From contig OZ025264.1 in the NCBI GenBank assembly GCA_964019135.1, positions 3,628,827 to 3,692,826 of the forward strand: a stretch of DNA of 64,000 nt. The letters are read 5' to 3'. The notes beneath the pieces were generated by a model. It made no database searches, had not been told where the DNA came from, and was given only the letters and a program-made list of their open reading frames with translations. The translations under genes and the position numbers were made by a program. Within the stretch, counting starts at the first letter, position 1; each line of letters starts with the position of its first letter. This DNA is from Arenicola marina (taxonomy: Eukaryota > Annelida > Polychaeta > Arenicolidae). This document shows positions 10,301 through 64,000 of this stretch, one piece after another.

Positions 10301-13300
10301 GGCCTCTCTTTATAGAAATCGTACATCGTATAACTTAAACCAAAACAAAGCTGCAACTCCATCGTCTTTCGCAGACGGACGGATGCCAACCACGATGAAA
10401 TGGCTAAGAGTTCCAAAGTGTAATGACGAATAGATGCGAGTGTGAATCTGAGATGATTCCCTCATTTGTTGAATGCAAATTGCTTGGAGGATATTTTCAT
10501 TTCGTTGACGATGAAGGGGTACAAGTGTGATATCTCGGCCCAGGCCCGGTGGATAAAAGACACCAAGCGCCTCGGGCCAAATGGGAATTTCCCTTTGGCC
10601 TAACGTGTAAGGTGTTCGCTCGGGATGCGAGGGTCGCCGGTTCGAAACCCGCCTAGAACTTTCTAGGGTAGAACCGGCGTCCATTCGGGCCTGGGACCAG
10701 AAATACTACACATGTACGTCTATATGAGCGATACTGTTAGATTAATCAGTCCTACATGTATATGTTATCATTAATGTCGTCATTTTACTTATTTATCACT
10801 TTTGCGCATTGTTGCGATCATCGACCTGTGCTGGACAATGCTACCAAACTAATCTGAAATCATACCATAGAATCCAATGCTTTGTCAATCCGTTGTTCTG
10901 AGTGTTTCTGCTAAAGCTCGCAATGTGGTTGTAGGGCGACGGCGTTGTGCTATCCGACCACTGCGACCTCCACCACGGCAACATGCAGTGCGAAGTGGAC
11001 CCGGAGTGTGTCTATTGCGAGCAGCCCAGCTTCCAGGATGCGGCCAAGTGCATACACCGCAGCAGAGCCAGAGTAAGTCACCTGACAGGGCCAGAGTAAG
11101 TCACCTGACAGGGCCAGAGTAAGTCACCTGACAGGGCCAGAGTAAGTCACCTGACAGGGCCAGAGTAAGTCACCTTACAGAGCCAGAGTAAATCACCTGA
11201 CAGGGCCAGAGTAAGTCACCTGACAGGGCCAGAGTAAGTCACCTGACAGTGCCAGAGTAAGTCACCTGACAGGGCCAGAGTAAGTCACCTGACAGGGCCA
11301 GAGTAAGTCACCTGACAGGGCCAGAGTAAGTCACCTGACAGGGCCAGAGTAAATCACCTGACAGGGCCAGAGTAAGTCACCTGACAGGGCCAGAGTAAGT
11401 CACCTGACAGAGCCAGAGTAAGTCACCTGACAGGGCCAGAGTAAGTCACCTGACAGGGCCAGAGTAAGTCACCTGACAGGGCCAGAGTAAGTCACCTGAC
11501 AGAGCCAGAGTAAGTCACCTCACAGAGCCAGAGTAAGTCACCTGACGGGGCCAGAGTAATTTACCTGACAGGGCCAGAGTAAGTCACCTGACAGGGCCAG
11601 AGTAAGTCACCTGACAGAGCCAGAGTAAGTCACCTGACAGGGCCAGAGTAAGTCATCTGACAGGGCCAGAGTAAGTCACCTGACAGGGCCAGAGTAAGTC
11701 ACCTGACAGGGCCAGAGAAAGTCACCTGACAGGGCCAAAGTAAGTCACCTGACAGGGCCAGAGTAAGTCACCTGACAGGGCCAGAGTAAGTCACCTGACA
11801 GCGCCAGAGTAAGTCACCTGACAGGGCCAGAGTAATTCACCTGACAGAGCCAGAGTAAGTCACCTGACAGGGCCAGAGTAAGTCACCTGACAGGGCTAGA
11901 GTAAGTCACCTGACAGGGCCAGAGTAAGTCACCTGACAGCCAAAGTCACCTGACGGAGCCAGAGTAAGTCACCTGACAGGGCCAGAGTAAGTCACCTGAC
12001 GGAGCCAGAGTAAGTCACCTGACAGGGCCAGAGTAGTTCACCTGACAGGGCCAGAGTAAGTCATCTGACAGTGCCAGAGTAAGTCACCCGACAGGGCCAG
12101 AGTAAGTCACCTGACAGGACCAGAGTAAGTCACCTGACAGGGCCAGAGTAAGTCACCTGACAGGGCCAGAGTAAGTCACCTGACAGAGCCAGAGTAAGTC
12201 ACCTAACAGGGCCAGAGTAAGTCACCTGACAAGGCCAGAGTAAGTCACCAGACAGGGCCAGAGTAAGTCACCTGACAGGGCCAGAGTAAATCACCTGACA
12301 GGGCCAGAGTAAGTCACCTGACAGGGCCAGAGTAAGTCACCTGACAGGGCCAGAGTAAGTCACCTGACAGAGCCAGAGTAAGTCACCTGACAGGGCCAGA
12401 GTAAGTCACCTGACAGGGCCAGAGTAAGTCACCTGACAGGGCCAGAGTAAGTCACCTGACAGAGCCAGAGTAAGTCACCTGACAGGGCCAGAGTAAGTCA
12501 CCTGACAGGGCCAGAGTAGTTCACCTGACAGGGCCAGAGTAAGTCACCAGGCAGGGCCAGAGTAAGTCACCTGACAGAGCCAGAGTAAGTCACCTGACAG
12601 GGCCAGAGTAAGTCACCTGACAGGGCCAGAGTAAATCACCTGACAGGGCCAGAGTAAGTCACCTGACAGGGCCAGAGTAAGTCACCTGACAGGGCCAGAG
12701 TAAGTCACCTGACAGAGCCAGAGTAAGTCACCTGACAAGGCCAGAGTAAGTCACCTGACAGTGCCAGAGTAAGTCACCTGACAGGGCCAGAGTAAGTCAC
12801 CTGACAGAGCCAGAGTAAGTCACCTGACAGGGCCAGAGTAAGTCACCTGACAGGGCCAGAGTAGTTCACCTGACAGGGCCAGAGTAAGTCACCAGGCAGG
12901 GCCAGAGTAAGTCACCTGACAGAGCCAGAGTAAGTCACCTGACAGGGCCAGAGTAAGTCACCTGACAGGGCCAGAGTAAATTACCTGACAGGGCCAGAGT
13001 AAGTCACCTGACAGAGCCAGAGTAATTCACCTGACGGAGCCAGAGTAAGTCACCTGACAGGGCCAGAGTAAATCACCTGACAGAGTCCAAGTAAGCCACT
13101 TTACAGAACCGGAGTAAATCACAGGCCTGTATTTCTCACTCACTGTCACTTAGCCCCCAAATTCTGTGTTCTACGCCATCCGAATGACACATGACCGCTC
13201 TGACGTCACTGTTTCTGTTGCCATGGCAGGAGTGCCGGAAGCTGGACGGAAAGGTTCCCGCGTGCCGAGGAATCTGCGCCGCCCTGCTGGACTGTGGCTC

Positions 13301-16300
13301 GTGCACAGTGCAGGGTCAGGGCGGCGTGCACCGCAACGACTCGAACCCAACACTATGGCTGAATGAGCGGTGCGCCTGGTGCGTGAAGGAGGCTCAGTGT
13401 CAGAAGCGTGAAGGTCAGTGTCTCCAGAGTGTGTCGAATAATGACACCTCACAGGTTAAAGCGTCTCGTTCTCAATAGTAACCATCCAGCCCCTGGGGCC
13501 ATATTCATAATCCCCTCGTAAGTTACGCACGAAAGGTGCATTTTGGTCTTAGCCTCACCAGCTCATTGTGGTGGTGCTCATGATTCAGCAATCCTCTTCA
13601 ATAGAATTTTAGCACTTTCTTAATCCACTTCTTGAGTGACTACTTATGCATTTTGAATCCGATAATCGCTCGACAATTTTCACGTAGACAGCCAACCTCT
13701 TGAAAATAGAAAATATGATCTTAAAGCGACCTTCCGGGAGTAACCTGCCAACCTTTTGTGTCGCTACGCGTCTCGATTGGTTTTACGGATTGTTGTGAAT
13801 TTACTATGGGTCAAGAATTTGATTGTGCTTATTAACCGACCTAGCATTTTTTATCGCTTTCGGAAAAATTGAATTGGCTAATGGAGTCGCTGGTTGTATT
13901 GACCATGTTGTAGTGTTCGAAGGGCTGTGTAATGAGACGGACGTGGCCCTGTCAGGCAAGGAAGGGTGGTGGGGCTGGACCAGCGACCGCCACGCCCAGC
14001 TGGCCCAGTGCCGAGTGGCCGACTTCCCGGCCGGACTGCATTGGATCGAGTATCGCTTCCCACCCGACCTCCTACAGCCGGACAAGGTGAGAGAGCGGAC
14101 AGATATCGGCAGCCTTCCAGCCACTGCGGTCCGCACCTCAGCATCTGTGACGTCACACTGGCCGATTTGTTCATTGGGGGCACTTCGCCCCTGCGACGTC
14201 ACAGTGGCTGAATGAAGTGTTCAGTGTGACACTGGACAGTGACGTCACAGTGGCTGAATGAAGTGTTCAATGTGACACTGGGCAGTGACGTCACAGTGGC
14301 TGAATGAAGTGTCCAGGGTGACACTGGTCAGTGACGACACAATGGCTGAATGAAGTGTTTAATGTGACACTGGGCAGTGACGTCACAGCGGTTGCATGAA
14401 GTGTTCAGTGTGACACTAGGCAGTGACGTCACAGTGGCTGCATGAAGTGACGTCACAATGGCTGAATGAAGTGACGTCACAGTGGCTGAAATGAAGTGAT
14501 GTCAGACTGGTTGCATAAAGTGTGTGACAATGGGCAGTGACGTCACAGTGACTGAAATGAAGTGACGTCACAGTGGCTGAAATGAAGTGACGTCAGACTG
14601 GTTGCATAAAGTGTGTGACACTGGGCAGTGACGTCAGAGTGACTGAAATGAAGTGGCGTCACAGTGTCTGAAATGAAGTGACGTCAGACTGGTTGCACAA
14701 AGTGTGTGACACTGGGCAGTGACGTTACAGTGGCTGAATGAAGTGACGTCACAGCGGTTGCATGAAGTGTTCAATGTGACACTGGGTAGTGACGTCACTG
14801 TGGTTGCATGATGTGTCCAGTATGTCACTGGACCATGACGGCACAGCATCTCGCCTGCACGATCTTTGGCTCGCAATTACTGTGGACATTACAAGTCTTA
14901 ATTCCTTTCCACAGGTTGAGATCTGTGTGGACATTACAAGTCTTAATTCCTTTCCTCAGGTTGAGATCTGTGTGGACATTACAAGTGTTAATTCCTTTCC
15001 TCAGGTTGAGATATGTGTGGACATTACAAGTGTTAATTCCTTTCCTCAGGTTGAGCTCTGTGTGGACACTACAAGTGTTAATTCCTTTCCACAGGTTGAG
15101 ATCTGTGTGGACATTACAAGCGTTAATTCCTTGCCTCAGGTTGAGATCTGTGTGGACATTACAAGTCTTAATTCCTTGCCTCAGGTTGAGATCTGTGTGG
15201 ACATTACAAGTCTTAATTCCTTTCCACAGGTTGAGATCTGTGTGGACATTACAAATCTTAATTCCTTTCCTCAGGTTGAGATCTGTGTGGACATTACAAT
15301 TGTTAATTCCTTTCCTCAGGTTGAGATATGTGTGGACATTACAAGTGTTAATTCCTTTCCTCAGGTTGAGCTCTGTGTGGACACTACAAGTGTTAATTCC
15401 TTTCCACAGGTTGAGATCTGTGTGGACATTACAAGCGTTAATTCCTTGCCTCAGGTTGAGATCTGTGTGGACGTTACAAGTCTTAATTCCTTGCCTCAGG
15501 TTGAGATCTGTGTGGACATTACAAGTCTTAATTCCTTTCCACAGGTTGAGATCTGTGTGGACATTACAAATCTTAATTCCTTTCCTCAGGTTGAGATCTG
15601 TGTGGACATTACAATTGTTAATTCCTTTCCTCGGGTTGAGATCTGTGTGGACATTACAAATCTTAATTCCTTTCCTCAGGTTGAGATCTGTGTGGACAGT
15701 ACAAGTGTTAATTCCTTTCCTCAGTTTGAGCTCTGTGTGGACATTACAAGTGTTAATTCCTTTTCTCAGGTTAAGATCTGTGTGGACATTACAAGTGTTA
15801 ATTCCTTTCCTCAGGTTGAGATCTGTGTGGACAGTACAAGTGTTAATTCCTTTCCACAGGTTGAGATCTGTGTGGACATTACAAGTGTTAATTCCTTGCC
15901 TCAGGTTGAGCTCTGTGTGGACGTTACAAGTCTTAATTCCTTTCCTCAGGTTGAGCTCTGTGTGGACATTACAAGTCTTAATTCCTTTCCTCAGGTTGAG
16001 ATCTGTGTGGACATTACAAGTGTTAATTCCTTGCCTCAGGTTGAGCCCTGTGTGGACGTTACAAGTCTTAATTCCTTTCCACAGGTTGAGCTCTGTGTGG
16101 ACATTACAAGTGTTAATTCCTTTCCTCAGGTTAAGATCTGTGTGGACATTACAAGTGTTAATTCCTTTCCTCAGGTTGAGATCTGTGTGGACATTACAAG
16201 TCTTAATTCCTTGCCTCAGGTTGAGATCTGTGTGGACATTACAAGTGTTAACTCCTTTCCACAGGTTGAGATCTGTGTGGACATTACAAGTGTTAATTCC

Positions 16301-19300
16301 TTGCCTCAGGTTGAGCTCTGTGTGGACGTTACAAGTCTTAATTCCTTTCCTCAGGTTGAGCTCTGTGTGGACATTACAAGTCTTAATTCCTTTCCTCAGG
16401 TTGAGATCTGTGTGGACATTACAAGTGTTAATTCCTTTCCTCAGGTTGAGATCTGTGTGGACATTACAAGTCTTAATTCCTTGCCTCAGGTTGAGATCTG
16501 TGTGGACATTACAAGTGTTAACTCCTTTCCACAGGTTGAGATCTGTGTGGACATTACAAGTGTTAATTCCTTTCCACAGGTTGAGATCTGTGTGGACATT
16601 ACAAGTGTTAATTCCTTGCCTCAGGTTGAGCTCTGTGTGGACGTTACAAGTCTTAATTCCTTTCCTCAGGTTGAGATCTGTGTGGACATTACAAGCGTTA
16701 ATTCCTTTCCTCAGGTTGAGAACTGTGTGGACATTACAAGTCTTAATTCCTTGCCTCAGGTTGAGATCTGTGTGGACATTACAAGTCTTAATTCCTTTCC
16801 ACAGGTTGAGATCTGTGTGGACATTACAAATCTTAATTCCTTTCCTCAGGTTAAGATCTGTGTGGACATTACAATTGTTAATTCCTTTCCTCGGGTTGAG
16901 ATCTGTGTGGACATTACAAATGTTAATTCCTTTCCTCAGGTTGAGATCTGTGTGGACAGTACAAGTGTTAATTCCTTTCCACAGGTTGAGCTCTGTGTGG
17001 ACATTACAAGTGTTAATTCCTTTCCTCAGGTTAAGATCTGTGTGGACATTACAAGTGTTAATTCCTTTCCTCAGGTTGAGATCTGTGTGGACATTACAAG
17101 TCTTAATTCCTTGCCTCAGGTTGAGATCTGTGTGGACATTACAAGTCTTAATTCCTTTCCTCAGGTTGAGATCTGTGTGGATATTACAAGTGTTAATTCC
17201 TTGCCTCAGGTTGAGCTCTGTGTGGACGTTACAAGTCTTAATTCCTTTCCTCAGGTTGAGATCTGTGTGGACATTACAAGTGTTAATTCCTTTCCTCAGG
17301 TTGAGCTCTGTGTGGACGTTACAAGTGTTAATTCCTTTCCTTAGGTTGAGATCTGTGTGGACATTACAAGTCTTAATTCCTTTCCTCAGGTTGAGATCTG
17401 TGTGGATATTACAAGTCTTAATTCCTTTCCTCAGGTTGAGCTCTGTGTGGACGTTACAAGTCTTAATTCCTTTCCTCAGGTTGAGATCTGTGTGGATATT
17501 ACAAGTGTTAATTCCTTTCCTCAGGTTGAGATCTGTGTGGACATTACAAGTGTTAATTCCTTTCCTCAGGTTGAGATCTGTATGGACATTACACGTGTTA
17601 ATTCCTTTCCTCAGGTTGAGATCGTCCGCGAGACGAGCATGCACGTGGAGTTCAAGGCCCTGTTTGACCTTGAGAACAGCCAGGGTCGGGTGTACACGGC
17701 GGCCTTCAGGGGGTTCCTGCACCCCATGGGCGCCCCATCGTCGTCCGGAGACCGCTACCTCAAGGTGTACATCGTCGCCTCGGCTGCCCAGGCCTGGCTC
17801 AACATGAGCCGCAACGAGAGCCCCGCCACCCAGGTCCGTCAGCTAGGGGTCTGTCTGCGTGCAGGGGTCTATCAGCGCGCAGGGGTCTATCAGCGCGCAG
17901 GGGTCTATCTGCGCGCAGGGGTCCACGCCCACATGTGGGGTCATGATGTGGCTAAAAGTTTACATTATTAATGCATACGCACGACTTCGAAGTTATGATT
18001 TTGTACGTCGCCCTGTTGGTTGTTGTGCTTAGGGTACTATTCCGACCTAACTTCCCGAAGGAAATCAGAAAGGTAATTCCGTTTAGTAGGCTATGGACGA
18101 ATGACGAGCAAAAAGGAAACAGTGCTTAAAGCTATGTTCTGACTATCTTATCTAATGTAATGTCTTTATTTGGTACTTCGGTTACATAGATAATGAACAT
18201 ACGATAAAATCCTAACCTGTAGCAACAAGACACACTACGCCCGGTCCCTGACTACTGACCACGTGGTGGCTGTCTGACTCCCGGTCCCTGACTACTGACC
18301 ACGTGGTGGCTGTGTGACTCCCGGTCCCTGACTACTGACCACGTGGTGGCTGTGTGACTCCCGGTCCCTGACTACTGACCACGTGGTGGCTGTGTGACTC
18401 CCGGTCCCTGACTACTGACCACGTGGTGGCTCTCTGACTCCCGGTCCCTGACTACTGACCACGTGGTGGCTGTGTGACTCCCGGTCCCTGAATACTGACC
18501 ACGTGGTGGCTGTCTGACTCCCGGTCCCTGACTACTGACCACGTGGTGGCTGTGTGACTCCCGGTCCCTGACTACTGACCACGTGGTGGCTGTGTGACTC
18601 CCGGTCCCTGACTACTGACCACGTGGTGGCTCTCTGACTCCCGGTCCCTGACTACTGACCACGTGGTGGCTGTGTGACTCCCTGTCCCTGACTACTGACC
18701 ACGTGGTGGCTGTGTGACTCCCGGTCCCTGACTACTGACCACGTGGTGGCGGTGTGACTCCTGGTCCCTGACTACTGACCACGTGGTGGCGGTGTGACTC
18801 CCGGTCGCTGACTACTGACCACGTGGTGGCTGTGTGACTCCTGGTCCCTGACTACTGACCACGTGGTGGCTTTGTGACTCCCGGTCCCTGACTACTGACC
18901 ACGTGGTGGCGGTGTGACTCCCGGTCCCTGACTACTGACCACGTGGTGGCTGTGTGACTCCTGGTCCCTGACTACTGACCCCGTGGTGGCTTTGTGACTC
19001 CCGGTCCCTGGCTACTGACCACGTGGTGGCTGTCTGACTCCCGGTCCCTGACTACTGACCACGTGGTGGCTGTGTGACTCCCGGTCCCTGACTACTGACC
19101 ACGTGGTAGCTGTCTGACTCCCGGTCCCTGACTACTGACCACGTGGTGGCTTTGTGACTCCCGGTCCCTGACTACTGACCACGTGGTGGCTGTGTGACTC
19201 CCGGTCCCTGACTACTGACCACGTGGTGGCTTTGTGACTCCCGGTCCCTGACTACTGACCACGTGGTGGCTGTGTGACTCCCGGTCCCTGACTACTGACC

Positions 19301-55300: not shown

Positions 55301-58300
55301 CACGTGATGCACCCCAACCCTGGTATAAGATAACCGTGAGTTATATTGTCCTGTCTCATGATAACATTGGCCATATGATGCACCCCAACCCTGGTATAAG
55401 ATAACCGTGAGTTATATTGTCCTGTCTCATGATAACATTGGCCATATGATGCACCCCAACCCTGGTATAAGATAACCGTGAGTTATATTGTCCTGTCTCA
55501 TGATAACATTGGCCATATGATGCACCCCAACCCTGGTATAAGATAACCGTGAGTTATATTGTCCTGTCTCATGATAACATTGGCCATATGATGCACCCCA
55601 ACCCTGGTATAAGATAACCGTGAGTTATATTGTCCTGTCTCATGATAACATTGGCCACGTGATGGAACCCACCCTGGTATAAGATAACCGTGAGTTATAT
55701 TGTCCTGTCTTATGATAACATTGGCCATATGATGCACCCCAACCCTGGTATAAGATAACCGTGAGTTATATTGTCCTGTCTTATGATAACATTGGCCATA
55801 TGATGCACCCCAACCCTGGTATAAGATAACCGTGAGTTATATTGTCCTGTCTCATGATAACATTGGCCACATGATGCACCCCAACCCTGGTATAAGATAA
55901 CCGTGAGTTATATTGTCCTGTCTTATGATAACATTGGCCACATGATGCACCCCAACCCTGGTATAAGATAACCGTGAGTTATATTGTCCTGTCTCATGAT
56001 AACATTGGCCACATGATGCACCCCAACCCTGGTATAAGATAACCGTGAGTTATATTGTCCTGTCTCATGATAACATTGGCCATATGATGCACCCCAACCC
56101 TGGTATAAGATAACCGTGAGTTATATTGTCCTGTCTCATGATAACATTGGCCATATGATGCACCCCAACCCTGGTATAAGATAACCGTGAGTTATATTGT
56201 CCTGTCTCATGATAACATTGGCCACATGATGCACCCCAACCCTGGTATAAGATAACCGTGAGTTATATTGTCCTGTCTCATGATAACATTGGCCACATGA
56301 TGCACCCCAACCCTGGTATAAGATAACCGTGAGTTATATTGTCCTGTCTCATTATAACATTGGCCATATGATGCACCCCAACCCTGGTATAAGATAACCG
56401 TGAGTTATATTGTCCTGTCTCATGATAACATTGGCCATATGATGCACCCCAACCCTGGTATAAGATAACCGTGAGTTATATTGTCCTGTCTCATGATAAC
56501 ATTGGCCACGTGATGGAACCCACCCTGGTATAAGATAACCGTGAGTTATATTGTCCTGTCTTATGATAACATTGGCCATATGATGCACCCCAGCCCTGGT
56601 ATAAGATAACCGTGAGTTATATTGTCCTGTCTTATGATAACATTGGCCATATGATGCACCCCAACCCTGGTATAAGATAACCGTGAGTTATATTGTCCTG
56701 TCTCATGATAACATTGGCCACATGATGCACCCCAACCCTGGTATAAGATAACCGTGAGTTATATTGTCCTGTCTCATGATAACATTGGCCACATGATGCA
56801 CCCCAACCCTGGTATAAGATAACCGTGAGTTATATTGTCCTGTCTCATGATAACATTGGCCACATGATGCACCCCAACCCTGGTATAAGATAACCGTGAG
56901 TTATATTGTCCTGTCTCATGATAACATTGGCCACATGATGCACCCCAACCCTGGTATAAGATAACCGTGAGTTATATTGTCCTGTCTCATGATAACATTG
57001 GCCACATGATGCACCCCAACCCTGGTATAAGATAACCGTGAGTTATATTGTCCTGTCTCATGATAACATTGGCCATATGATGCACCCCAACCCTGGTATA
57101 AGATAACCGTGAGTTATATTGTCCTGTCTCATGATAACATTGGCCATATGATGCACCCCAACCCTGGTATAAGATAACCGTGAGTTATATTGTCCTGTCT
57201 CATGATAACATTGGCCACATGATGCACCCCAACCCTGGTATAAGATAACCGTGAGTTATATTGTCCTGTCTCATGATAACATTGGCCATATGATGCACCC
57301 CAACCCTGGTATAAGATAACCGTGAGTTATATTGTCCTGTCTCATGATAACATTGGCCATATGATGCACCCCAACCCTGGTATAAGATAACCGTGAGTTA
57401 TATTGTCCTGTCTCATGATAACATTGGCCACATGATGCACCCCAACCCTGGTATAAGATAACCGTGAGTTATATTGTCCTGTCTCATGATAACATTGGCC
57501 ACGTGATGCACCCCAACCCTGGTATAAGATAACCGTGAGTTATATTGTCCTGTCTCATGATAACATTGGCCACATGATGCACCCCAACCCTGGTATAAGA
57601 TAACCGTGAGTTATATTGTCCTGTCTCATGATAACATTGGCCACATGATGCACCCCAACCCTGGTATAAGATAACCGTGAGTTATATTGTCCTGTCTCAT
57701 GATAACATTGGCCATATGATGCACCCCAACCCTGGTATAAGATAACCGTGAGTTATATTGTCCTGTCTCATGATAACATTGGCCACATGATGCACCCCAA
57801 CCCTGGTATAAGATAACCGTGAGTTATATTGTCCTGTCTCATGATAACATTGGCCATATGATGCACCCCAACCCTGGTATAAGATAACCGTGAGTTATAT
57901 TGTCCTGTCTCATGATAACATTGGCCACATGATGCACCCCAACCCTGGTATAAGATAACCGTGAGTTATATTGTCCTGTCTCATGATAACATTGGCCATA
58001 TGATGCACCCCAACCCTGGTATAAGATAACCGTGAGTTATATTGTCCTGTCTCATGATAACATTGGCCATATGATGCACCCCAACCCTGGTATAAGATAA
58101 CCGTGAGTTATATTGTCCTGTCTCATGATAACATTGGCCACATGATGCACCCCAACCCTGGTATAAGATAACCGTGAGTTATATTGTCCTGTCTCATGAT
58201 AACATTGGCCACGTGATGGAACCCACCCTGGTATAAGATAACCGTGAGTTATATTGTCCTGTCTCATGATAACATTGGCCACATGATGCACCCCAACCCT

Positions 58301-60468
58301 GGTATAAGATAACCGTGAGTTATATTGTCCTGTCTCATGATAACATTGGCCACATGATGCACCCCAACCCTGGTATAAGATAACCGTGAGTTATATTGTC
58401 CTGTCTCATGATAACATTGGCCACATGATGCACCCCAACCCTGGTATAAGATAACCGTGAGTTATATTGTCCTGTCTCATGATAACATTGGCCACGTGAT
58501 GGAACCCACCCTGGTATAAGATAACCGTGAGTTATATTGTCCTGTCTTATGATAACATTGGCCATATGATGCACCCCAACCCTGGTATAAGATAACCGTG
58601 AGTTATATTGTCCTGTCTTATGATAACATTGGCCATATGATGCACCCCAACCCTGGTATAGGATAACCGTGAGTTATATTGTCCTGTCTCATGATAACAT
58701 TGGCCACATGATGCAACCCAACCCTGGTATAAGATAACCGAGAGTTATATTGTCCTGTCTCATGATAACATTGGCCACATGATGCACCCCAACCCTGGTA
58801 TAAGATAACCGTGAGTTATATTGTCCTGTCTCATGATAACATTGGCCACATGATGCACCCCAACCCTGGTATAAGATAACCGTGAGTTATATTGTCCTGT
58901 CTCATGATAACATTGGCCATATGATGCACCCCAACCCTGGTATAAGATAACCGTGAGTTATATTGTCCTGTCTCATGATAACATTGGCCATATGATGCAC
59001 CCCAACCCTGGTATAAGATAACCGTGAGTTATATTGTCCTGTCTCATGATAACATTGGCCACGTGATGCACCCCAACCCTGGTATAAGATAACCGTGAGT
59101 TATATTGTCCTGTCTCATGATAACATTGGCCACATGATGCACCCCAACCCTGGTATAAGATAACCGTGAGTTATATTGTCCTGTCTCATGATAACATTGG
59201 CCACATGATGCACCCCAACCCTGGTATAAGATAACCGTGAGTTATATTGTCCTGTCTCATGATAACATTGGCCACATGATGCACCCCAACCCTGGTATAA
59301 GATAACCGTGAGTTATATTGTCCTGTCTCATGATAACATTGGCCACATGATGCACCCCAACCCTGGTATAAGATAACCGTGAGTTATATTGTCCTGTCTC
59401 ATGATAACATTGGCCACATGATGCACCCCAACCCTGGTATAAGATAACCGTGAGTTATATTGTCCTGTCTCATGATAACATTGGCCATATGATGCACCCC
59501 AACCCTGGTATAAGATAACCGTGAGTTATATTGTCCTGTCTCATGATAACATTGGCCATATGATGCACCCCAACCCTGGTATAAGATAACCGTGAGTTAT
59601 ATTGTCCTGTCTCATGATAACATTGGCCACGTGATGGAACCCACCCTGGTATAAGGTAACCGTGAGTTATATTGTCCTGTCTCATGATAACATTGGCCAC
59701 ATGATGCACCCCAACCCTGGTATAAGATAACCGTGAGTTATATTGTCCTGTCTCATGATAACATTGGCCACATGATGCACCCCAACCCTGGTATAAGATA
59801 ACCGTGAGTTATATTGTCCTGTCTCATGATAACATTGGCCACGTGATGCACCCCAACCCTGGTATAAGATAACCGTGAGTTATATTGTCCTGTCTCATGA
59901 TAACATTGGCCATATGATGCACCCCAACCCTGGTATAAGATAACCGTGAGTTATATTGTCCTGTCTCATGATAACATTGGCCACATGATGCACCCCAACC
60001 CTGGTATAAGATAACCGTGAGTTATATTGTCCTGTCTCATGATAACATTGGCCATATGATGCACCCCAACCCTGGTATAAGATAACCGTGAGTTATATTG
60101 TCGTGTCTCATGATAACATTGGCCATATGATGCACCCCAACCCTGGTATAAGATAACCGTGAGTTATATTGTCCTGTCTCATGATAACATTGGCCACGTG
60201 ATGGAACCCACCCTGGTATAAGATAACCGTGAGTTATATTGTCGTGTCTCATGATAATAATTGGCCACGTGATGGAACCCACCCTGGTATAAGATAACCG
60301 TGAGTTATATTGTCCTATCTCTAGTGACGCGTCTCTTTTTTTAGCTGCCAGTGTCAGGGTCACAGCGACTTCTGTAGCAAAGATGATGGCACTGACTGCG
60401 ACTGCAAGAACAACACCAAGTCCCCGAGATGTGACTCCAACAAAGACAACGAATGCTACAAAAAACAG
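7171..60468 (+). CDS. MEGF8: MEGF8 orthologue, 33 exons, 3' end outside window
   Basis: Large type I membrane protein gene. The joined exons give 2,413 codons with consistent phases and GT/AG borders throughout. Seen domain order: signal peptide (about residues 7-30), CUB1, two EGFs, Kelch propeller 1 (about 210-565), PSI region, Ca-EGF, laminin EGFs, CUB2 (about 1275-1420), EGFs, Kelch propeller 2 (about 1490-1820), PSI region, Ca-EGF, laminin EGFs. This is the MEGF8 order. Attractin has only one CUB and one propeller. Human MEGF8 is about 2,800 residues, so roughly 400 residues with the membrane span and tail lie past the right edge. In vertebrates MEGF8 works with the E3 ligase MGRN1 to lower Smoothened at the cell surface, and it is needed for left-right and limb patterning. 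A similar role here is inference. Coding sequence is only about 14% of the span; introns are mostly tandem arrays. Confidence 0.93.
7373..7666 (+). other. MEGF8: MEGF8 intron 1
   Basis: Short AT-rich intron of 294 bases with GTAAGT and TTTGCAG ends. No repeats are visible. Confidence 0.85.
7667..7830 (+). CDS. MEGF8: MEGF8 exon 2: middle of CUB1
   Basis: Codons 68-122, acceptor TTTGCAG, donor GTAAGT, phases 1 to 0. It encodes METECSYDYLFVYDGLS, almost the same as human TECTYDYLFVYDG. The conserved acidic and aromatic residues of a calcium-binding type CUB are present. Confidence 0.93.
7831..8242 (+). other. MEGF8: MEGF8 intron 2
   Basis: 412-base AT-rich intron with GTAAGT and TTTTGCAG ends. 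Nothing else is recognised. Confidence 0.85.
8243..9419 (+). CDS. MEGF8: MEGF8 exon 3: end of CUB1, two EGFs, Kelch blades 1-5
   Basis: Codons 123-514, the largest exon (1,177 bases), acceptor TTTTGCAG, donor GTAAGT, phases 0 to 1. It starts MLIHFYSDRNYMLNGF (CUB1 end). Two EGF modules follow (CPFNCTDDRGTC...GRGC and CPDGCGGHGSC...GYDC), then Kelch motifs with paired glycines (YVFGGNN, LMFGGILANG, LYLFGGQT, LLIYGGLTPD, MVIYGGNSH). The segment around FYHLGCHRWV matches human FYHLGCHQWV. Several human exons appear to be one exon here. GC content is higher than in the flanking introns. Confidence 0.95.
9420..10133 (+). other. MEGF8: MEGF8 intron 3
   Basis: 714-base intron with no tandem array and no recognised element. 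Confidence 0.8.
10134..10282 (+). CDS. MEGF8: MEGF8 exon 4: Kelch blade 6
   Basis: Codons 515-564, acceptor CTTGCAG, donor GTGAAT, phases 1 to 0. It encodes GRFSTVVTAAFNNVLLITGG then GNVLGDLMAYTVP, aligning with human GRYSHVAAVLGGSVLLVAGG and GDLMAYKVP. This closes the first propeller. Confidence 0.92.
10545..10700 (+). mobile_element. tRNA-derived SINE-like sequence in intron 4
   Basis: A tRNA-like segment with an A-box-like stretch (GGCCTAACGTGTAAGGTG) and a good B box (GGTTCGAAACC) at about 10597-10650. It is followed by unrelated sequence, so it is not a complete tRNA gene. The borders are approximate and no target duplication was found. Confidence 0.5.
10935..11072 (+). CDS. MEGF8: MEGF8 exon 5: first PSI-type cysteine module
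   Basis: Codons 565-610, acceptor GTTGTAG, donor GTAAGT, phase 0 on both sides. The cysteine pattern CDLHHGNMQCEVDPECVYCE matches human CSMYTDHSVCSRDPECSWCQ. The last bases, GCCAGA, and the donor are part of the 23-bp unit that fills the next intron. Confidence 0.9.
11067..13130 (+). repeat. 23-bp minisatellite spanning the exon 5 donor
   Basis: About 89 copies of a 23-bp unit built as GCCAGA|GTAAGTCACCTGACAGG. The first copy is the real end of exon 5 plus its splice donor, so every unit carries a near-consensus 5' splice site. Variants (AGAGCC, GTAAATC, GTAGTTC) recur in blocks, showing segmental homogenisation. The last copies near 13080-13130 are degenerate. Confidence 0.97.
13230..13413 (+). 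CDS. MEGF8: MEGF8 exon 6: PSI-type module
   Basis: Codons 611-671, acceptor CATGGCAG, donor GTCAGT, phases 0 to 1. It encodes CRGICAALLDCGSCTV and then CAWCVKEAQCQKR. Human MEGF8 has LLGDCQACLAF and GWCVHNESC at this place. Confidence 0.9.
13414..13913 (+). other. MEGF8: MEGF8 intron 6
   Basis: 500-base intron without tandem array. Nothing is recognised. Confidence 0.8.
13914..14086 (+). CDS. MEGF8: MEGF8 exon 7: linker with Gly-Trp-Trp-Gly motif
   Basis: Codons 672-729, acceptor GTTGTAG, donor GTGAGA, phases 1 to 0. It encodes GKEGWWGW and later PAGLHWIEYRF and QPDK, matching human GTVGWWG, PGLHLLTF and QPDK. A second AG nine bases downstream (after TTCGAAG) would also keep the frame, so the acceptor is uncertain by three codons. 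Confidence 0.87.
14140..14815 (+). repeat. degenerate minisatellite rich in TGACGTCA
   Basis: An irregular array in intron 7 with units of roughly 23-46 bases built from GTGACGTCACAGTGGCTGAA and GTGTGACACTGGGCA. About 14 copies keep the perfect palindrome TGACGTCA (the CRE/ATF core) and several more differ by one base. Whether any protein binds is unknown. Confidence 0.85.
14881..17623 (+). repeat. 45-bp minisatellite spanning the exon 8 acceptor
   Basis: 61 candidate acceptors at exact 45-base spacing, from AG at 14914 to AG at 17614, with no indel. The unit holds a branch-like TTAAT, the tract TTCCTTTCC, CAG, and GTTGAGATC, which is also the start of exon 8. The real junction is the last copy. 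The unit is 15 codons and lacks stops in three frames, which creates long false open frames on both strands. Copy 55 has TTAG in place of CAG. Common variants are CTT/GTT before AAT, TTGCC for TTTCC, and GAGCTC for GAGATC. Confidence 0.98.
17615..17833 (+). CDS. MEGF8: MEGF8 exon 8: inter-domain beta-rich segment
   Basis: Codons 730-802, phase 0 on both sides. It encodes VEIVRETSMHVEFKALFDL and AAFRGFLHPM, where human has VSIVRSTTITL and VYRGFIYPM. The acceptor is the last of 61 copies of a 45-bp unit; the exon's first nine bases are inside the unit. The donor GTCCGT is weak. The end, NESPATQ, leads to EEVGQ of the next exon (human ENMEEVGRW). Confidence 0.88.
17846..17922 (+). repeat. 19-20-bp short array after the exon 8 donor
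   Basis: Four to five copies of GGGGTCTATCAGCGCGCA-like units begin about 12 bases inside intron 8. Confidence 0.85.
18241..19480 (+). repeat. 40-bp minisatellite with CACGTG in each unit
   Basis: 31 copies in exact 40-base register from 18241 to 19441 and no indel. The unit carries GACCACGTGGTGGC, so nearly every copy holds the E-box palindrome CACGTG. The last copy runs into the acceptor of exon 9, but the unit itself contains no splice junction. Confidence 0.97.
19482..19688 (+). CDS. MEGF8: MEGF8 exon 9: inter-domain segment
   Basis: Codons 803-871, acceptor GCTTGCAG, donor GTAGGC, phase 0 on both sides. It encodes EEVGQLQAATYDYAEARRLS, then IFPQEERGTKYYVLEK and LRLEWTG. Human has EEVGRWVAHQEKETRRLQ, LFPLPGRDHKYAVE and LTLLWDRTG in the same order. 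The acceptor lies directly after a 40-bp array. Confidence 0.88.
20007..20252 (+). CDS. MEGF8: MEGF8 exon 10: PSI module
   Basis: Codons 872-953, acceptor TTCTGCAG, donor GTGAGT, phase 0 on both sides. It encodes FSAEFLEPF and then CLACMTDMACGWCVTSHACV, very close to human CLGCLADQGCGWCLTSATC. It ends in CPLCADHVECFTCTS. Confidence 0.93.
20253..20904 (+). other. MEGF8: MEGF8 intron 10, left part
   Basis: AT-rich sequence. GTAAGTAAGTAATGTG near 20486 and the following TTTATTTGGTAC resemble sequence near 18163-18180 and 36210-36240, perhaps the 3' end of an old repeat family. Nothing else is recognised. Confidence 0.45.
20905..21118 (+). mobile_element. SINE, 5'-truncated copy of the AACC-tailed family
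   Basis: It shares CCTAACGGCACGTGG, the GGTTCG box, GTGTGGTC, GGGGGTTACCCCCGGGGACA, CCCATTGACGCGATAT and GGTTAAAGCGTCCTGAATA with the fuller copy at 61105-61358. It ends in a short ACAACCAA tail. Confidence 0.75.
21155..21258 (+). CDS. MEGF8: MEGF8 exon 11: PSI module part
   Basis: Codons 954-987, acceptor GTTTCAG, donor GTAAGT, phases 0 to 2. It encodes DLLCEWLTSEARC and VDRCPVPCQE, aligning with human DPFCEWHQS and PEECPPLC. Confidence 0.85.
21515..21656 (+). mobile_element. SINE 3' fragment with (AACC)n tail
   Basis: GAGGGAGTTACCCCCCG, ATTGACACGATA, GGGTTTAAG and a tail of seven or so CCAA units match the 3' half of the SINE at 61105, with more divergence. It lies in intron 11, about 70 bases before exon 12. 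Confidence 0.6.
21727..21992 (+). CDS. MEGF8: MEGF8 exon 12: two PSI modules
   Basis: Codons 988-1076, acceptor CCGGCAG, donor GTGAGC, phases 2 to 1. It encodes NECAWCDQTRTCFPFMSYVV and then CADCMTHYMCGWCG, followed by NPTIGRCLQGDF. Human has QCAWCQSTHTCFLFAAY, CHECLQSHECGWCG and NPTLGRCLQGDF. Confidence 0.95.
21993..22484 (+). other. MEGF8: MEGF8 intron 12
   Basis: 492-base intron with a G-rich middle (about 22225-22320). No array or element is recognised. Confidence 0.8.
22485..22710 (+). CDS. MEGF8: MEGF8 exon 13: calcium-binding type EGF
   Basis: Codons 1077-1151, acceptor TCGACAG, donor GTAGGT, phases 1 to 2. It encodes CPDVEECRLLLHDC, then ATCVNSFEAFECHCDRGFMG, a standard Ca-EGF with the D-x-E-C start and the C-x-N-x(4)-F/Y-x-C core. 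Human has CPDVDECRLGLARC and YECHCQRGYQGDG. Confidence 0.95.
22942..23168 (+). CDS. MEGF8: MEGF8 exon 14: EGF and laminin-type EGF
   Basis: Codons 1152-1227, acceptor GTTGCAG, donor GTACGT, phases 2 to 1. It encodes HGTCSGGSEFECMCDVGWTG, then CGCHNHSTC...CDLCQNWTMGQHCEFC and PGSYGDAT. Human has HGVCSGPPDFTCVCDLGW and CDECQDWTWGEHCERC. Confidence 0.95.
23169..23702 (+). other. MEGF8: MEGF8 intron 14
   Basis: 534-base intron. Between about 23310 and 23430 there are three degenerate copies of a unit around GTGTCTTAACAAGCG and AAGACAAAC. Confidence 0.6.
23703..23844 (+). CDS. MEGF8: MEGF8 exon 15: laminin-type EGF
   Basis: Codons 1228-1274, acceptor GTCCCAG, donor GTAGGC, phases 1 to 2. It encodes CQCNGHGDARQGFCD and then CLSGYYGDP. 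Human has CQCNGHGDPRRGHCD and CSPGYYGDP. Confidence 0.95.
23858..24045 (+). repeat. C-rich short array in intron 15
   Basis: Four to five degenerate units with runs of C and the words ATAGGCCGCTT or CCGCCATA, of about 35-40 bases each. Confidence 0.7.
24121..24343 (+). CDS. MEGF8: MEGF8 exon 16: first half of CUB2
   Basis: Codons 1275-1349, acceptor TCCCCAG, donor GTGAGT, phases 2 to 0. It encodes GGKCYLKCEGRTILGNITSG and SDQVVYCLWILT, then PTITFTME. Human has GGSCFREC, ALLTNVSS and LSYCVWVVS. Confidence 0.9.
24344..24933 (+). other. MEGF8: MEGF8 intron 16
   Basis: 590-base intron without tandem array. Nothing is recognised. Confidence 0.8.
24934..25102 (+). CDS. MEGF8: MEGF8 exon 17: second half of CUB2
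   Basis: Codons 1350-1405, acceptor TTTCCAG, donor GTATGA, phases 0 to 1. It encodes DYVYVYDGIPGFM and SLLAAFCGYD, where human has YVLAFDGFPRFL and SLIAAFCG. The final GGCTAA and the donor are repeated about 149 times in the following intron. Confidence 0.92.
25097..31503 (+). repeat. 43-bp minisatellite spanning the exon 17 donor
   Basis: About 149 copies of a 43-bp unit: GTATGACYATAGGACTGATA, then TCTAKTGTAGTCTCAGTG and KCTAA. The first unit starts exactly at the donor of exon 17 and the unit's end (GCTAA in many copies) is the exon end. Every unit therefore carries CTAA|GTATGA or CTAG|GTATGA. The array fills almost all of intron 17. Sub-variants (TGTCTAGG, TACCTAAG, GTTGTCTC) recur in multi-unit blocks. 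Confidence 0.97.
31588..31772 (+). CDS. MEGF8: MEGF8 exon 18: end of CUB2 and EGF modules
   Basis: Codons 1406-1467, acceptor TTCGAAG, donor GTGAGT, phases 1 to 0. The joined codon and GFNASYHVNMCPDSC match human GFNASVGSARC. Then ACVCADGYGGVDCQTELCPA follows, like human WAGPHCRMALCPENC. The acceptor has a modest pyrimidine tract but is the only one that fits phase and homology. Confidence 0.9.
31868..32066 (+). repeat. short array of GCGCGCTCTG units in intron 18
   Basis: About 13 copies of a 14-16-bp unit such as GCGCGCTCTGCGATA or GCGCTCTGTGACA. It gives false open frames on both strands. Confidence 0.9.
32189..32505 (+). CDS. MEGF8: MEGF8 exon 19: EGF end and Kelch blade of second propeller
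   Basis: Codons 1468-1572, acceptor TCTGCAG, donor GTGAGT, phases 0 to 2. It encodes CTCVGDFAGPDC, then GRLARMGHSLVSC and YLYMYGGYSLTGGILGDHWQ. Human has CICAEGFGGPDC, FLHRLGHTMV and LWMFGGLGLPQGLLGNLY. Confidence 0.93.
32506..33084 (+). other. MEGF8: MEGF8 intron 19
   Basis: 579-base AT-rich intron with a C10 run near 32728. Nothing else is recognised. Confidence 0.8.
33085..33217 (+). CDS. MEGF8: MEGF8 exon 20: Kelch blade
   Basis: Codons 1573-1617, acceptor GGTCAG, donor GTGTGT, phases 2 to 0. It encodes RYFHSAACVLTV, IFVYGGLVPGLGASNELWKF and RWTKLQ. Human has RSFHAAAYVPAG, MYLLGGL and FWVLNLTTLQW. Confidence 0.92.
33218..34305 (+). repeat. AT-rich array filling intron 20
   Basis: Nested units built from GACGTATGTAGTGTATATAT, GAAGTATGTAGTG and GACTATATAGTGTG with higher-order blocks of about 100-170 bases. 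The array starts directly at the donor (GTGTGTGACG) and stops about 20 bases before the acceptor, so the intron is essentially all repeat. The unit does not include exon sequence. Confidence 0.9.
34321..34507 (+). CDS. MEGF8: MEGF8 exon 21: Kelch blade
   Basis: Codons 1618-1679, acceptor CTCTGCAG, donor GTCAGT, phases 0 to 1. It encodes PPLAGHTMTL and VWILGGFSLQDYFSEHDYEY, then RWSVLKVSG. Human has AVAGHTLTA, LLLVGGYSPENGFNQQLLEY and TWVSGAQSG. Confidence 0.93.
34558..34775 (+). mobile_element. complete tRNA-derived SINE with target duplication
   Basis: The element (34573-34760) is flanked by the 15-base direct repeat TTCATACTTATCAGG at 34558-34572 and 34761-34775. It has an A-box-like TGGTGTAGTGGTTAGCGCAC and a B box GGGTTCGAATCC, then a tRNA-unrelated body ending near CATTTCATTCA. 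It sits in intron 21, in the same orientation as the gene. Its body differs from that of the AACC-tailed family. Confidence 0.88.
35170..35333 (+). CDS. MEGF8: MEGF8 exon 22: Kelch blade
   Basis: Codons 1680-1734, acceptor CCTCTAG, donor GTACAC, phases 1 to 0. It encodes GVYGHSAVHHEDSRAVYLFG and then YSLDVRNHSWSEMPS. Human has GLYGHSAVYHEATDSLYVFG and YSLHCPDRTWSLL. Confidence 0.94.
35334..35890 (+). other. MEGF8: MEGF8 intron 22
   Basis: 557-base intron without array. Nothing is recognised. Confidence 0.8.
35891..36035 (+). CDS. MEGF8: MEGF8 exon 23: Kelch blade
   Basis: Codons 1735-1782, acceptor CCCACAG, donor GTGAGC, phases 0 to 1. It encodes RRFLHEAVTVAEYMVVMGGR, then DFDSSVWAYQYHCNEWINL. 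Human has RLFHASALLGDTMVVLGGR and EFSSDVLLYQVNCNAWLL. Confidence 0.93.
36036..36413 (+). other. MEGF8: MEGF8 intron 23
   Basis: 378-base intron with an AAAT/AAAG microsatellite near 36092 and GTAAGTAAAGTAAGTAATGTG near 36213, shared in part with intron 10. It may hold decayed repeat tails. Confidence 0.55.
36414..36669 (+). CDS. MEGF8: MEGF8 exon 24: last Kelch blade and PSI start
   Basis: Codons 1783-1867, acceptor TTGAAAG, donor GTGAGC, phases 1 to 2. It encodes AVALRDHVYHVGGFDSRSQG, LTRLSLPADVC, then a PSI start CTLYADSDTCLEKSGCAVC. Human has AVAAVGSRLYISGGFGG, LLALTLPPDPC and CNQSGACTWC. Confidence 0.92.
36757..40530 (+). repeat. 30-bp purine-rich minisatellite in intron 24
   Basis: About 125 copies of a 30-bp unit built from TTGTGGATGAGGGAGGAGGG and AGCGGAGGAG. 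The + strand is nearly all purine. Variant units (GAAGTATCTGTGGATGAGGG, AATGAGC, GAGATTGG) recur in the same order, so there is higher-order structure. The length, a multiple of three, and lack of stops make many false open frames. It does not include a splice junction. Confidence 0.97.
40639..40780 (+). CDS. MEGF8: MEGF8 exon 25: PSI module
   Basis: Codons 1868-1915, acceptor CTTACAG, donor GTGGGT, phases 2 to 0. It encodes CLVENTTVSIQQGATCD and then CGLFQTCSECLARWPVYQG. Human has CRRLRTCSECLARHPRTLQ. The exon end GCCGAG and its donor are repeated about 96 times in the next intron. Confidence 0.92.
40772..43378 (+). repeat. 27-bp G-rich minisatellite spanning the exon 25 donor
   Basis: About 96 copies of GCCGAG|GTGGGTGGGGGGTG plus AGGTCAG, or the sister unit GCCGAG|GTGAATGGGTGGGG plus ATGTAAG. 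The first unit is the real end of exon 25 and its donor. Longer copies of the exon end are embedded near 41073-41105 and 43169-43200. The + strand has many closely spaced runs of three or more G. Confidence 0.96.
43682..43883 (+). CDS. MEGF8: MEGF8 exon 26: PSI module
   Basis: Codons 1916-1982, acceptor CCGCTAG after a pyrimidine run, donor GTAAGT, phases 0 to 1. It encodes CQWCSNCPVGVC and ADCDKCGAQQICMWTRQFKR. Human has CKWCTNCPEGAC and ADCEQCTREGKCMWTRQFKR. Confidence 0.96.
44176..44390 (+). CDS. MEGF8: MEGF8 exon 27: PSI module
   Basis: Codons 1983-2054, acceptor CACCAG after a (CT)n tract, donor GTCAGT, phases 1 to 0. It encodes IPIYDWNC, VESSPPLGCPPRC and CTDCLQAWGAEGGSQMCVWS. Human has QPTYDWTC, VESSPPLPCPTPC and CLDSKGADGGWQHCVWS. 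Confidence 0.95.
44653..44917 (+). CDS. MEGF8: MEGF8 exon 28: PSI module
   Basis: Codons 2055-2142, acceptor GCCCACAG, donor GTGAGT, phases 0 to 1. It encodes CMPPAYLSLRCSSGECGRVL, CSQCLASPGCGWCALGG and CMEGGL. Human has CLSPSYLPLRCMAGGCGRLL, CALCLRRPHCGWCAWGG and CMEGGL. Confidence 0.96.
44990..46105 (+). repeat. 35/32-bp minisatellite in intron 28
   Basis: About 33 copies of CTAATGACCATAGCAACGAG plus (CAG)CATTATCACCGA. Units with and without the CAG triplet, and with ACAAGTG for CTAATG, alternate in repeated blocks, so higher-order duplication is visible. No splice junction is included. Confidence 0.95.
46238..46352 (+). repeat. three copies of a 42-bp unit before exon 29
   Basis: AATGTTGTACATACTTGTRT followed by CCTATGTGT occurs three times. 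The last copy runs into the acceptor tract of exon 29. It may be an early stage of an array beside a splice site. Confidence 0.85.
46365..46542 (+). CDS. MEGF8: MEGF8 exon 29: calcium-binding type EGF
   Basis: Codons 2143-2201, acceptor CTCCACAG, donor GTCAGT, phases 1 to 2. It encodes WGFGKCPPENECLNDHHDC and then TGFQCDCKGGYAPNQ. Human has WAFLSCPPEDECANGHHDC and GYECSCKTGYTMDN. Confidence 0.95.
46543..47544 (+). other. MEGF8: MEGF8 intron 29
   Basis: 1,002-base intron. A short array of GGGGTGAACCG-like words lies near 46600-46710, and a SINE at about 46872-47040. The rest is unremarkable. Confidence 0.6.
46872..47040 (+). mobile_element. SINE copy, 5' part of the AACC-tailed family
   Basis: GTGGTGGTTAGCGTGCCCGG (A-box region), CCTGAGAGCCTAACGGCACG, the B-box-like GGTGGTTGGAACCC and GTGTGGTCGCA...GATAAAGATCCCAT match the SINEs at 20905 and 61105. 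The 3' half is missing or diverged. Confidence 0.6.
47545..47737 (+). CDS. MEGF8: MEGF8 exon 30: EGF and laminin-type EGF start
   Basis: Codons 2202-2266, acceptor CACCCTCAG, donor GTACAG, phases 2 to 0. A second AG five bases downstream would put the frame into a stop, so the upstream AG is chosen. It encodes GMCEPVCKPGCGDNGRC, CQCHFGYVGRDCS and ECQCNKHSNC. Human has GLCRPVCAQGCVNGSC, CRCHFGFVGRNCS and ECRCNRHSEC. The last 20 exon bases are copied through the next intron. Confidence 0.94.
47718..50005 (+). repeat. 35-bp array spanning the exon 30 donor, with 0.8-kb higher-order copies
   Basis: Eight 35-bp units (GTGCCACAACCTGACACAG|GTASAGTGTAATCAAA) follow the real exon end up to about 48000. 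Then a larger block of about 777 bases is repeated (48630-49406 and 49407-50005, plus a partial copy at 48230-48630). Each block includes a fresh copy of the exon end, GTCTGTACGGAGTGCCACAA, and the donor. The bulk of the block is AT-rich sequence of unknown origin. Confidence 0.9.
50369..50536 (+). CDS. MEGF8: MEGF8 exon 31: laminin-type EGF
   Basis: Codons 2267-2322, acceptor GTCTTCAG, donor GTAAGT, phase 0 on both sides. It encodes GEHCEVCKPLYVGDP and CQSCAEFCYHHTAVCLSQQE, ending in LPLDPEN. Human has GSHCEQCLPLFVG, CRPCHAFCRGNSHICISRKE and SLDPEEIEN. The last 28 bases are contained in the 35-bp intron repeat. Confidence 0.93.
50509..52240 (+). repeat. 35-bp minisatellite spanning the exon 31 donor
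   Basis: About 49 copies of CCTCCCACTGGACCCAGAAA AT|GTAAGTGACCAGR. The first unit is the end of exon 31, with 28 exonic bases, so most of each unit is exon sequence followed by a strong donor. Variants TTCCACTAGACCC and AACAATG recur in blocks. Confidence 0.97.
52340..52545 (+). repeat. two tandem copies of a 105-bp unit in intron 31
   Basis: TTCCGGAAYCCCCCACGTTYT and AGGTCGAATCGGCAGAG...TTTATGATGGAGGTACAAAT occur twice in tandem at 52340-52442 and 52443-52545. Confidence 0.85.
52774..52922 (+). CDS. MEGF8: MEGF8 exon 32: laminin-type EGF
   Basis: Codons 2323-2371, acceptor CTCCAG, donor GTGAGT, phases 0 to 2. It encodes TVCIHCANNTQGDHCKDCKD and GFFRLN. Human has AVCVNCQNNSYGEKCESCLQ and GYFLLDG. 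Confidence 0.93.
52919..60318 (+). repeat. 71-bp minisatellite spanning the exon 32 donor
   Basis: The unit begins GTGAGTTATATTGTCCTGTC and ends GGTATAAGATAACC. The real exon 32 end is CAACC|GTGAGTTATATTG, so exon end and donor are part of the unit. The first unit is expanded inside by about 13 copies of a 21-bp word (TTGTCCTGTCTCATGATAAC plus A, 52930-53210). About 86 further 71-bp units run to 60318, broken once by a transposon at 53520-54400. A 70-bp variant with GTGATGGAACCCACC recurs in blocks. Confidence 0.97.
53520..54400 (+). mobile_element. pogo/Tigger-type DNA transposon, internally deleted
   Basis: An 881-base element inserted in the 71-bp array with a TA target duplication (53518-53519 and 54401-54402). 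The ends are inverted: CAGTAAAACCTCCCT at the left and AGAGAGGTTTTACTG at the right, and GATCG-containing sub-terminal words recur. From 54064 it encodes MAATQKYAKELPHSRKVELI and then LADIFGIGKSTVQ, the N-terminal helix-turn-helix of pogo/CENP-B-like transposases. A one-base shift then moves the match (KRKADYIMAYEANEEPSR) to another frame, and after a stop RFRLCVDSENLDSAIWTWS follows. Most of the DDE domain is deleted, so it is non-autonomous. Confidence 0.88.
60345..60468 (+). CDS. MEGF8: MEGF8 exon 33: laminin-type EGF
   Basis: Codons 2372-2413, acceptor TTTTTTTAG, donor GTAACG, phases 2 to 0. It encodes CQCQGHSDFCSKDDGTDCDC and ends ECYKKQ. Human has CQCNGHADTCNEQDGTGCPC and DCYKYQ. The next human residues, CAKC, should open exon 34, which is not in the window as a clear exon. 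Confidence 0.92.
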
Positions 60469-63210: not shown

Positions 63211-63274
63211 TCTAGCCCAACTTGTGAAAATGTTTTGTAGCACCCATGTCTGTCTACTTAAAGAGTAACGGATT

Positions 63275-64000
63275 ACTGTGTTAAGTGCCTCACCCTCCTT
63301 GCAGTGCTTGAGAGCATCGTCCTCCATGCTGTGTTCTAAGTGCCTTTTCCTCCTCGCAGTGTTCTAAGTGCCTCGTAATCCTTGCAGAGCTCTAAGTGCC
63401 TTGGCCTTCTTGCCCTTTTCTACGTGCCCTGTCCTCGCAGAGCTCTAAGTGCCTCGTCATCCTCGCAATGGTCTTAAGTGCCTCGTCACCCTCACAGTAT
63501 TCTAAGTGCTTCGTCACCCTCACAGTATTCTAAGTGCTTCGTCACCCTCACAGTATTCTAAGTGCCTCGTCATTATCGCAGTGCTCTAAGTGCCTCGTCA
63601 TCGTCGCAATGTTCTAAGTGCCCCGTCCTGCTCGCAGTGTTCTAAGTGCCTAGTCCTCCTGGCAATGCTCTTAACGTGCCTCGTCACCCTGGCAGTATTC
63701 TAAGTGCCTCGTCACCCTCACAGTATTCTAAGTGCCTCGTCATCCTCGCAGTGCTCTAAGTGCCTCGTCATCATCGCAGTGTTCTAAGTGCCTCGTCCTG
63801 CTCGCAGTGTTCTTATCTGCCCCGTCCTGCTCGCAGTGTTCTAAGTGCCTCGTCACCCTTGCAGTGTTCTAAGTGCCTCGTCTTCCTTGCAGTGTTCTAA
63901 GTTCCTCGTCCTCCTAGCAGTGTTCTAAGTGCCTCGTCCTCCTCGCAGTGTTCTAAGTGCCTCGTCACCCTCACAGTATTCTAAGTGCTTCGTCACCCTC
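63275..64000 (+). repeat. 28-bp minisatellite, probable exon 34 acceptor array (cut by window edge)
   Basis: About 26 copies of TGTTCTAAGTGCCTCGTCMT CCTCGCAG. Read from the AG, the next codons are TGT TCT AAG TGC (Cys-Ser-Lys-Cys). Exon 33 ends in phase 0 after YKKQ, and human MEGF8 continues CAKC, so the unit looks like the 3' splice site plus the start of the next exon. The real exon should follow past 64000. Confidence 0.75.

Follow-up and report, generated by a model that had tools for sequence, protein, structure and literature searches.

Mirage-like minisatellites across seven predicted splice junctions of a MEGF8-like gene of Arenicola marina

Tandem repeats over intron–exon boundaries, called mirages after work on Adh3, are described for amphioxus globins in the available passages of PMC3087553, where their mechanism is termed unclear, the absence of interference with regular splicing is suggested, and a role as a route of intron gain is proposed. 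The amphioxus Adh3 mirages (Canestro et al. 2002, as cited in the available passages of PMC3087553 and PMC3902484) have junction-crossing units of 10–72 base pairs (bp) and somatic instability; mirages are also noted in lancelet PGBD5, Adh and troponin C (TnC) (PMC3902484, same passages). Here we describe arrays of this kind in a window of 64,000 nucleotides of the annelid Arenicola marina (GCA_964019135.1, contig OZ025264.1, positions 3,628,827–3,692,826, forward strand; all positions below are those of the window), where minisatellites cover seven splice junctions of the single large + strand gene, a MEGF8-like gene.

Arrays were called with Tandem Repeats Finder and their edges refined. Eighteen intronic arrays have junctions that can be judged inside the window, and in seven of them the unit spans an exon–intron boundary of the gene model: the donors of introns 5, 17, 25, 30, 31 and 32, and the acceptor of intron 7. 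Copy counts include the functional copies, except for intron 32 (54400–60321 block only).

7189–60468, + strand: MEGF8-like gene, 33 exons, 2405 amino acids (splice-aware model, Pfam)
11063–13122, + strand: intron 5 donor array, 23-bp unit, about 90 copies, last 10 bases of exon 5 and GTAAGT; GT kept in 88 of 89
14881–17623, + strand: intron 7 acceptor array, 45-bp unit, 61 copies, pyrimidine-rich tract, AG and the first 9 bases of exon 8; AG kept in 59 of 61
25099–31503, + strand: intron 17 donor array, 43-bp unit, 149 copies, 4 exon bases and GTATGA; GT kept in 142 of 149
40775–43378, + strand: intron 25 donor array, G-rich 27-bp unit, about 97 copies, 6–12 exon bases and GTGGGT; GT kept in 93 of 97
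47718–48000, + strand: intron 30 donor array, 35-bp unit, 8 copies, 20 exon bases and GTACAG; GT kept in 7 of 8
50505–52238, + strand: intron 31 donor array, 35-bp unit, 49.5 copies, 32 exon bases and GTA; GT kept in 47 of 49
52919–60321, + strand: intron 32 donor tract, 21-bp and 71-bp units, the 71-bp unit with AACC and the donor GTGAGT; GT kept in 83 of 84 (54400–60321 block)
63282–64000, + strand: intron 33 28-bp array with acceptor-like CTCGCAG; reaches the window end, downstream exon beyond the window

The initial annotation had counted eight junction arrays; seven are borne out, and the downstream exon of the eighth, in intron 33, lies outside the window. It had put the overlap with the upstream exon at 4–28 bases, which agrees at the lower end (four bases in introns 17 and 32, each a weak case taken singly) and falls short at the upper end, where intron 31 has 32; the 10 exon bases in the intron 5 unit carry one mismatch. 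By local alignment the intron 25 array starts at 40769; the start of the intron 32 tract (about 52919) was set by hand. The spanning arrays hold from 8 to about 150 splice-site copies each, and the splice dinucleotide is kept in 519 of 537 copies over the seven. Left out of the eighteen were a tetranucleotide run (21623), the rows at 44022 and 48386, each of about two copies, the two at 2130 and 6795, which precede the gene, a 17-bp row inside an inserted element (53528), and the intron 33b array, whose junction lies beyond the window; satellites at 48477 and 49253 were merged with intron 30, overlapping periods were merged, and diverged arrays scoring below 50 in the finder fall outside the count. 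Of the 49,597 intron bases, 33,093 belong to arrays (intron 32 tract including the inserted element; excluding the intron 33b array), and arrays occupy most of introns 5, 17, 20 and 32; no finder row lies wholly inside any model exon.

No common unit sequence was found when 28 unit pairs were compared with shuffles: the lowest six had local scores of 15–20 (about 8–10 matching letters), 4 of the 28 fell below 0.05, and two stood at 0 of 200, both involving the intron 33 unit. We read these low-ranking matches as short chance or splice-motif likeness. The claims that the units share no sequence, that the arrays had separate origins and that they resemble amphioxus mirages hold in substance. Microhomology at the outer breakpoints, judged by eye, gave a plain 3-base AGT at both ends in intron 30 only, and no general rule. 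An 18-bp array adjoining donor 8 (17845–17923) was considered as junction-derived and rejected, its match being no better than that of shuffled sequence (124 of 1000).

The arrays agree in kind with amphioxus mirages, as these are described in the available passages, and exceed them in reported places per gene and in copies. The boundary covered may be 5' or 3', as in mirages (here six donors and one acceptor), AG/GT signals lie in the repeats, and undisturbed normal splicing, a mirage trait, would be compatible with the open reading frame. Changes of length in both germline and soma are a further trait of mirages. In the globin genes BflGb6 and BflGb9 (PMC3087553, available passages) the repeats likewise cross an intron–exon boundary; BflGb6 has 150–160 bp units in 3–6 repeats in two haplotypes, BflGb9 a duplicate, each gene at one boundary, whereas the MEGF8-like gene has seven boundaries, units of 23–71 bp and 8–149 copies. 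The Adh3 units resemble those here in length and in crossing the junction. The PGBD5 repeats (60 and 108 bp; PMC3902484, available passages) have the junction structure seen here, and the annotated exon inside them is doubted by the authors; they number 2–7 imperfect copies by assembly, whereas the arrays here are mostly long. Among the matches listed in the open-licence literature (titles and abstract openings), none gives a genome-wide lancelet count of junction-spanning arrays.

The arrays are thus a real, striking and dense cluster of a known kind. The published mirages that we found are from cephalochordates and concern few genes with one or two places each, and one gene here holds seven; the origin of mirages, termed unclear in the available text of PMC3087553, thereby becomes countable and not just describable. 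The gene is also a natural test of how the spliceosome chooses the exon-attached site among dozens of near-identical sites.

For the null models each array was collapsed to one unit, giving 23,616 bases with 65 junctions, over which seeds of the observed unit lengths were placed in 4000 simulations. Uniform seeds over the collapsed gene give 1.25–1.62 spanning arrays against the seven seen, and 0–2 of 4000 simulations reach seven; seeds barred from exon interiors give 1.64–2.12 (0–7 of 4000; 1 of 4000 in a rerun); seeds kept in their own collapsed intron give 3.45–4.26. The number of junction arrays had been called far above chance, which is upheld against whole-gene seeding (7 versus 1.25–2.12; 0–7 of 4000) and is marginal against seeding within the own intron, where 3.5–4.3 are expected. 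The further claim, that duplication is seeded by something tied to the junctions, is not established, short introns (median remainder 246 bases) raising the expectation to that level. The arrays are no chance sprinkling over the gene, and the junction-specific part is about 2-fold and marginal. The intron-length-matched null is the one that matters, because compact introns alone would give about half of the junction cases.

The compactness can be read from the non-repeat remainder, which has a median of 246 bases in the 14 array-bearing introns (of introns 1–32) versus 496 in array-free introns. Length-weighted draws (mean 525) were as low in 0 of 10,000, draws with equal chance per intron (390) in 31 of 10,000. 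This leaves two readings: a loss of intron sequence to the arrays, or seeding that is not proportional to length. Because the array-bearing introns have such short remainders, an intron edge is often reached by a seed of 10–71 bp.

We regard it as fairly probable that these minisatellites are of the mirage type and that ordinary minisatellite seeding, with selection as a filter, gave rise to them in compact introns. A short segment across a splice junction would have been tandemly duplicated; slippage or unequal exchange would then have lengthened the repeat and made its copies partly uniform. Splicing would use the exon-attached copy (the first donor or the last acceptor) and so leave the exon intact, the remaining copies being intronic decoys. 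Seeding would be the general minisatellite process of the genome acting on short introns; seeds in exons would be purged by selection, and those in introns or at their edges would persist. Compact-intron seeding alone may give about half of the junction cases, the rest being chance or a modest junction bias, and a weaker junction-linked bias may exist beside the geometry.

Several observations weigh against seeding by intron geometry and selection. The own-intron null leaves an excess of about 2-fold (89–322 of 4000; rerun 119 of 4000). Restriction to arrays of at least 5 copies (n = 14, 7 spanning) gives 0 of 4000 with exons excluded and 30 of 4000 under the own-intron null; restriction to arrays of at least 1 kilobase (n = 11, 6 spanning) gives 0 of 4000 and 58 of 4000. 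Array-bearing introns are shorter than equal draws per intron predict, which could mean that seeding follows junctions and not length. Spanning arrays are longer than the others (Mann–Whitney p 0.008; intron 32 length including the inserted element), an excess not predicted by plain geometry. Finally, the junctions of the spanning arrays rest on the gene model and not on transcripts, and for five joins no clear crossing domain match is present among the matches shown (intron 5, where a sub-threshold PSI_integrin match ends just beyond the join; introns 7 and 25, with none; introns 31 and 32, where the best EGF stretch sits within exon 32).

The alternative that survives best, a possible but doubtful one, is that junctions themselves raise local tandem duplication, through co-transcriptional R-loops or breaks, through pausing, or through repeated letters of the donor motif. 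It would account for the roughly 4-fold excess over whole-gene seeds (0–7 of 4000), for the residual 2-fold excess within the own introns, and for spanning arrays being longer while array-bearing introns are not the long ones; six of the seven junctions are donors, a bias that is not significant (p 0.125). Against it, no common motif or breakpoint rule was found, and the residual excess is marginal: when introns 17 and 32, with their 4-base overlaps, are scored as non-spanning (5 of 18), the exclusion of exons gives 50 of 4000, and under the own-intron null the excess vanishes (708 of 4000, expectation 3.2). A single gene does not suffice to tell junction-linked seeding apart from the geometry of compact introns combined with selection against exonic arrays.

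Copied exon tails are found in intron 30, where the last 30–32 bases of exon 30 recur three more times, at spacings of 776 and 721 bases, within larger repeats. Each copy is an open segment of 36 nucleotides with AG before and GT after it, in phase 0/0:

48461–48496, + strand: pseudo-exon 1 of intron 30, exon 30 tail copy, AG/GT borders, 36 nucleotides, open
49237–49272, + strand: pseudo-exon 2 of intron 30, structure as pseudo-exon 1
49958–49993, + strand: pseudo-exon 3 of intron 30, structure as pseudo-exon 1, more diverged

Exon pieces in introns are not new: in amphioxus VCBP3 (PMC2632668, available passages) introns hold whole exons or parts of exons, in some cases carrying canonical splice sites, that adjoin similar coding exons, as the pseudo-exons here adjoin exon 30; those passages do not describe them as junction-crossing minisatellites. 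The pseudo-exons are possible raw material for new exons, and this gene offers a natural setting in which to ask whether exon tails, once copied, turn into exons. A broader proposition, which we hold to be unlikely, is that the splice junctions of this lineage are intrinsic seeds of tandem duplication by way of a process coupled to transcription or splicing; array births would then track the number of junctions and not the length of DNA, and copied exon tails such as those of intron 30 would steadily supply in-frame candidate exons.

It is very unlikely that the arrays are an assembly artefact or that the modelled junctions are misplaced. The gene model is a simple splice-and-codon model with assumed splice-site frequencies, hand-corrected by frames, splice sites and expected domain patterns; the start codon at 7189 was preferred to an in-frame ATG at 7171, and splice scores are weak at the acceptors of exons 5 and 7 and at the donor of intron 17. 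Against an artefact, the seven arrays hold 5–35 distinct copy variants each, unlike stutter, the frame is open over all 2405 amino acids, and domain matches cross two of the joins: the intron 17 join lies inside a CUB profile match that extends over it to the profile end, and the intron 30 join inside a full-length EGF_LMN_ATRN match (profile 1–44, E 4e-18). Around the spanning-array junctions, from 90 bases upstream to one unit downstream, nearly every alternative donor with a score above 0 would break the frame. Two keep it: one lies 9 bases downstream of donor 25, and the other, a poor site, 78 bases upstream of donor 5. The acceptor of intron 7 has four in-frame alternatives, among them an equal-scoring neighbouring array copy.

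Pfam matches of the predicted protein comprise CUB, the Attractin/LZTR1 beta-propeller, Kelch repeats in two regions, PSI and EGF_LMN_ATRN (attractin-type laminin EGF), with an additional CUB in a fragment of the protein. They correspond to CUB, EGF, two Kelch propellers, PSI and attractin-type laminin EGF domains, which we take to be the architecture of MEGF8; the name MEGF8-like accordingly denotes orthology inferred from domain architecture, not from a MEGF8 alignment or tree. Among 55 PDB matches of the predicted protein none is a chain named MEGF8 or attractin. The gene presumably continues past the window end.

That the arrays are functional splicing devices, kept for a buffering or regulatory effect of their many donor copies on splicing or for the in-frame repeats that they add, is highly improbable. 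Most copies are still good splice sites (440 of 537 equal or exceed the functional site in score); in intron 7, whose unit measures 45 bp, 6 of the 53 upstream AG|GTTGAG copies have an open, in-frame path to exon 8; and intron 30 has its three in-frame pseudo-exons. Conservation at the site positions, however, does not significantly exceed that of the remaining unit (rank test, combined p 0.21), the site window ranking first of 35 in intron 31 and last of 35 in intron 30. In five of the seven arrays the unit length would break the frame for neighbouring copies, and of the 133 downstream GAG|GT sites of intron 25 with a score of at least 4, not one is in frame and open. Selection keeping the decoy sites is not supported (combined p 0.21), and neutral decoys kept alike by homogenisation fit the site copies.

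Least likely of all is that AGGT-bearing exon segments were duplicated and the copies became introns (the Rogers/Hellsten model), as the filling of most of introns 5, 17, 20 and 32 by arrays and the intron-gain proposal for globin mirages (PMC3087553, available passages) might suggest: in the seven introns the intron start matches the next exon start at 2–7 of 15 bases and the exon end matches the intron end at 2–6 of 15, ungapped, the range over 32 introns being 2–7 in both comparisons, so that the likeness is not above that of other introns. The intron gain of PMC4974935 (available passages) shares with these arrays a tandem duplication that copies splice signals; the units here, in contrast, already hold intronic sequence, and no new intron is evident. 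This intronic sequence is not seen in the next exon, and the junction therefore probably predates the duplication.

In intron 5 the sequence of the exon-attached copy occurs in 11 of 89 copies (itself counted), which suggests that the functional unit takes part in the turnover of the array. Mirage clusters are characterised by homogenised inner units and diverged units at the edges. Here the distal end is more diverged than the first copies in four of the six donor arrays (introns 5, 30, 31 and 32, the last in the 54400–60321 block) and is not in introns 17 and 25; the intron 7 acceptor array is nearly flat. A polarity of growth from the junction was likewise inconsistent among the arrays.

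The 45-bp array of intron 7 (14780–17842) is open for 854–1005 codons in two forward frames and one reverse frame, in our view because the unit lacks stops there; such long open frames are a trap for gene finders. Intron 20 (33249–34297) is nearly all one array of a 20-bp unit that begins 31 bases past the donor and stops 23 before the acceptor. The arrays of the neighbouring introns 24 and 25 (36786–40532 and 40769–43378) are G-rich on the coding strand and are candidate G-quadruplex formers. Rfam gave no match at gathering scores. An element of about 880 bp (53520–54400), with inverted ends of the CAGTAAAACCTC type, lies at a TA within the 71-bp array of intron 32 and therefore was inserted after the array existed; its frame of 88 amino acids (53944–54207) gives weak helix-turn-helix matches. 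Upstream of the gene, at 4986–5600, are nested inverted repeats (164 nucleotides at 93%, 99 nucleotides at 90%), perhaps a mobile element.
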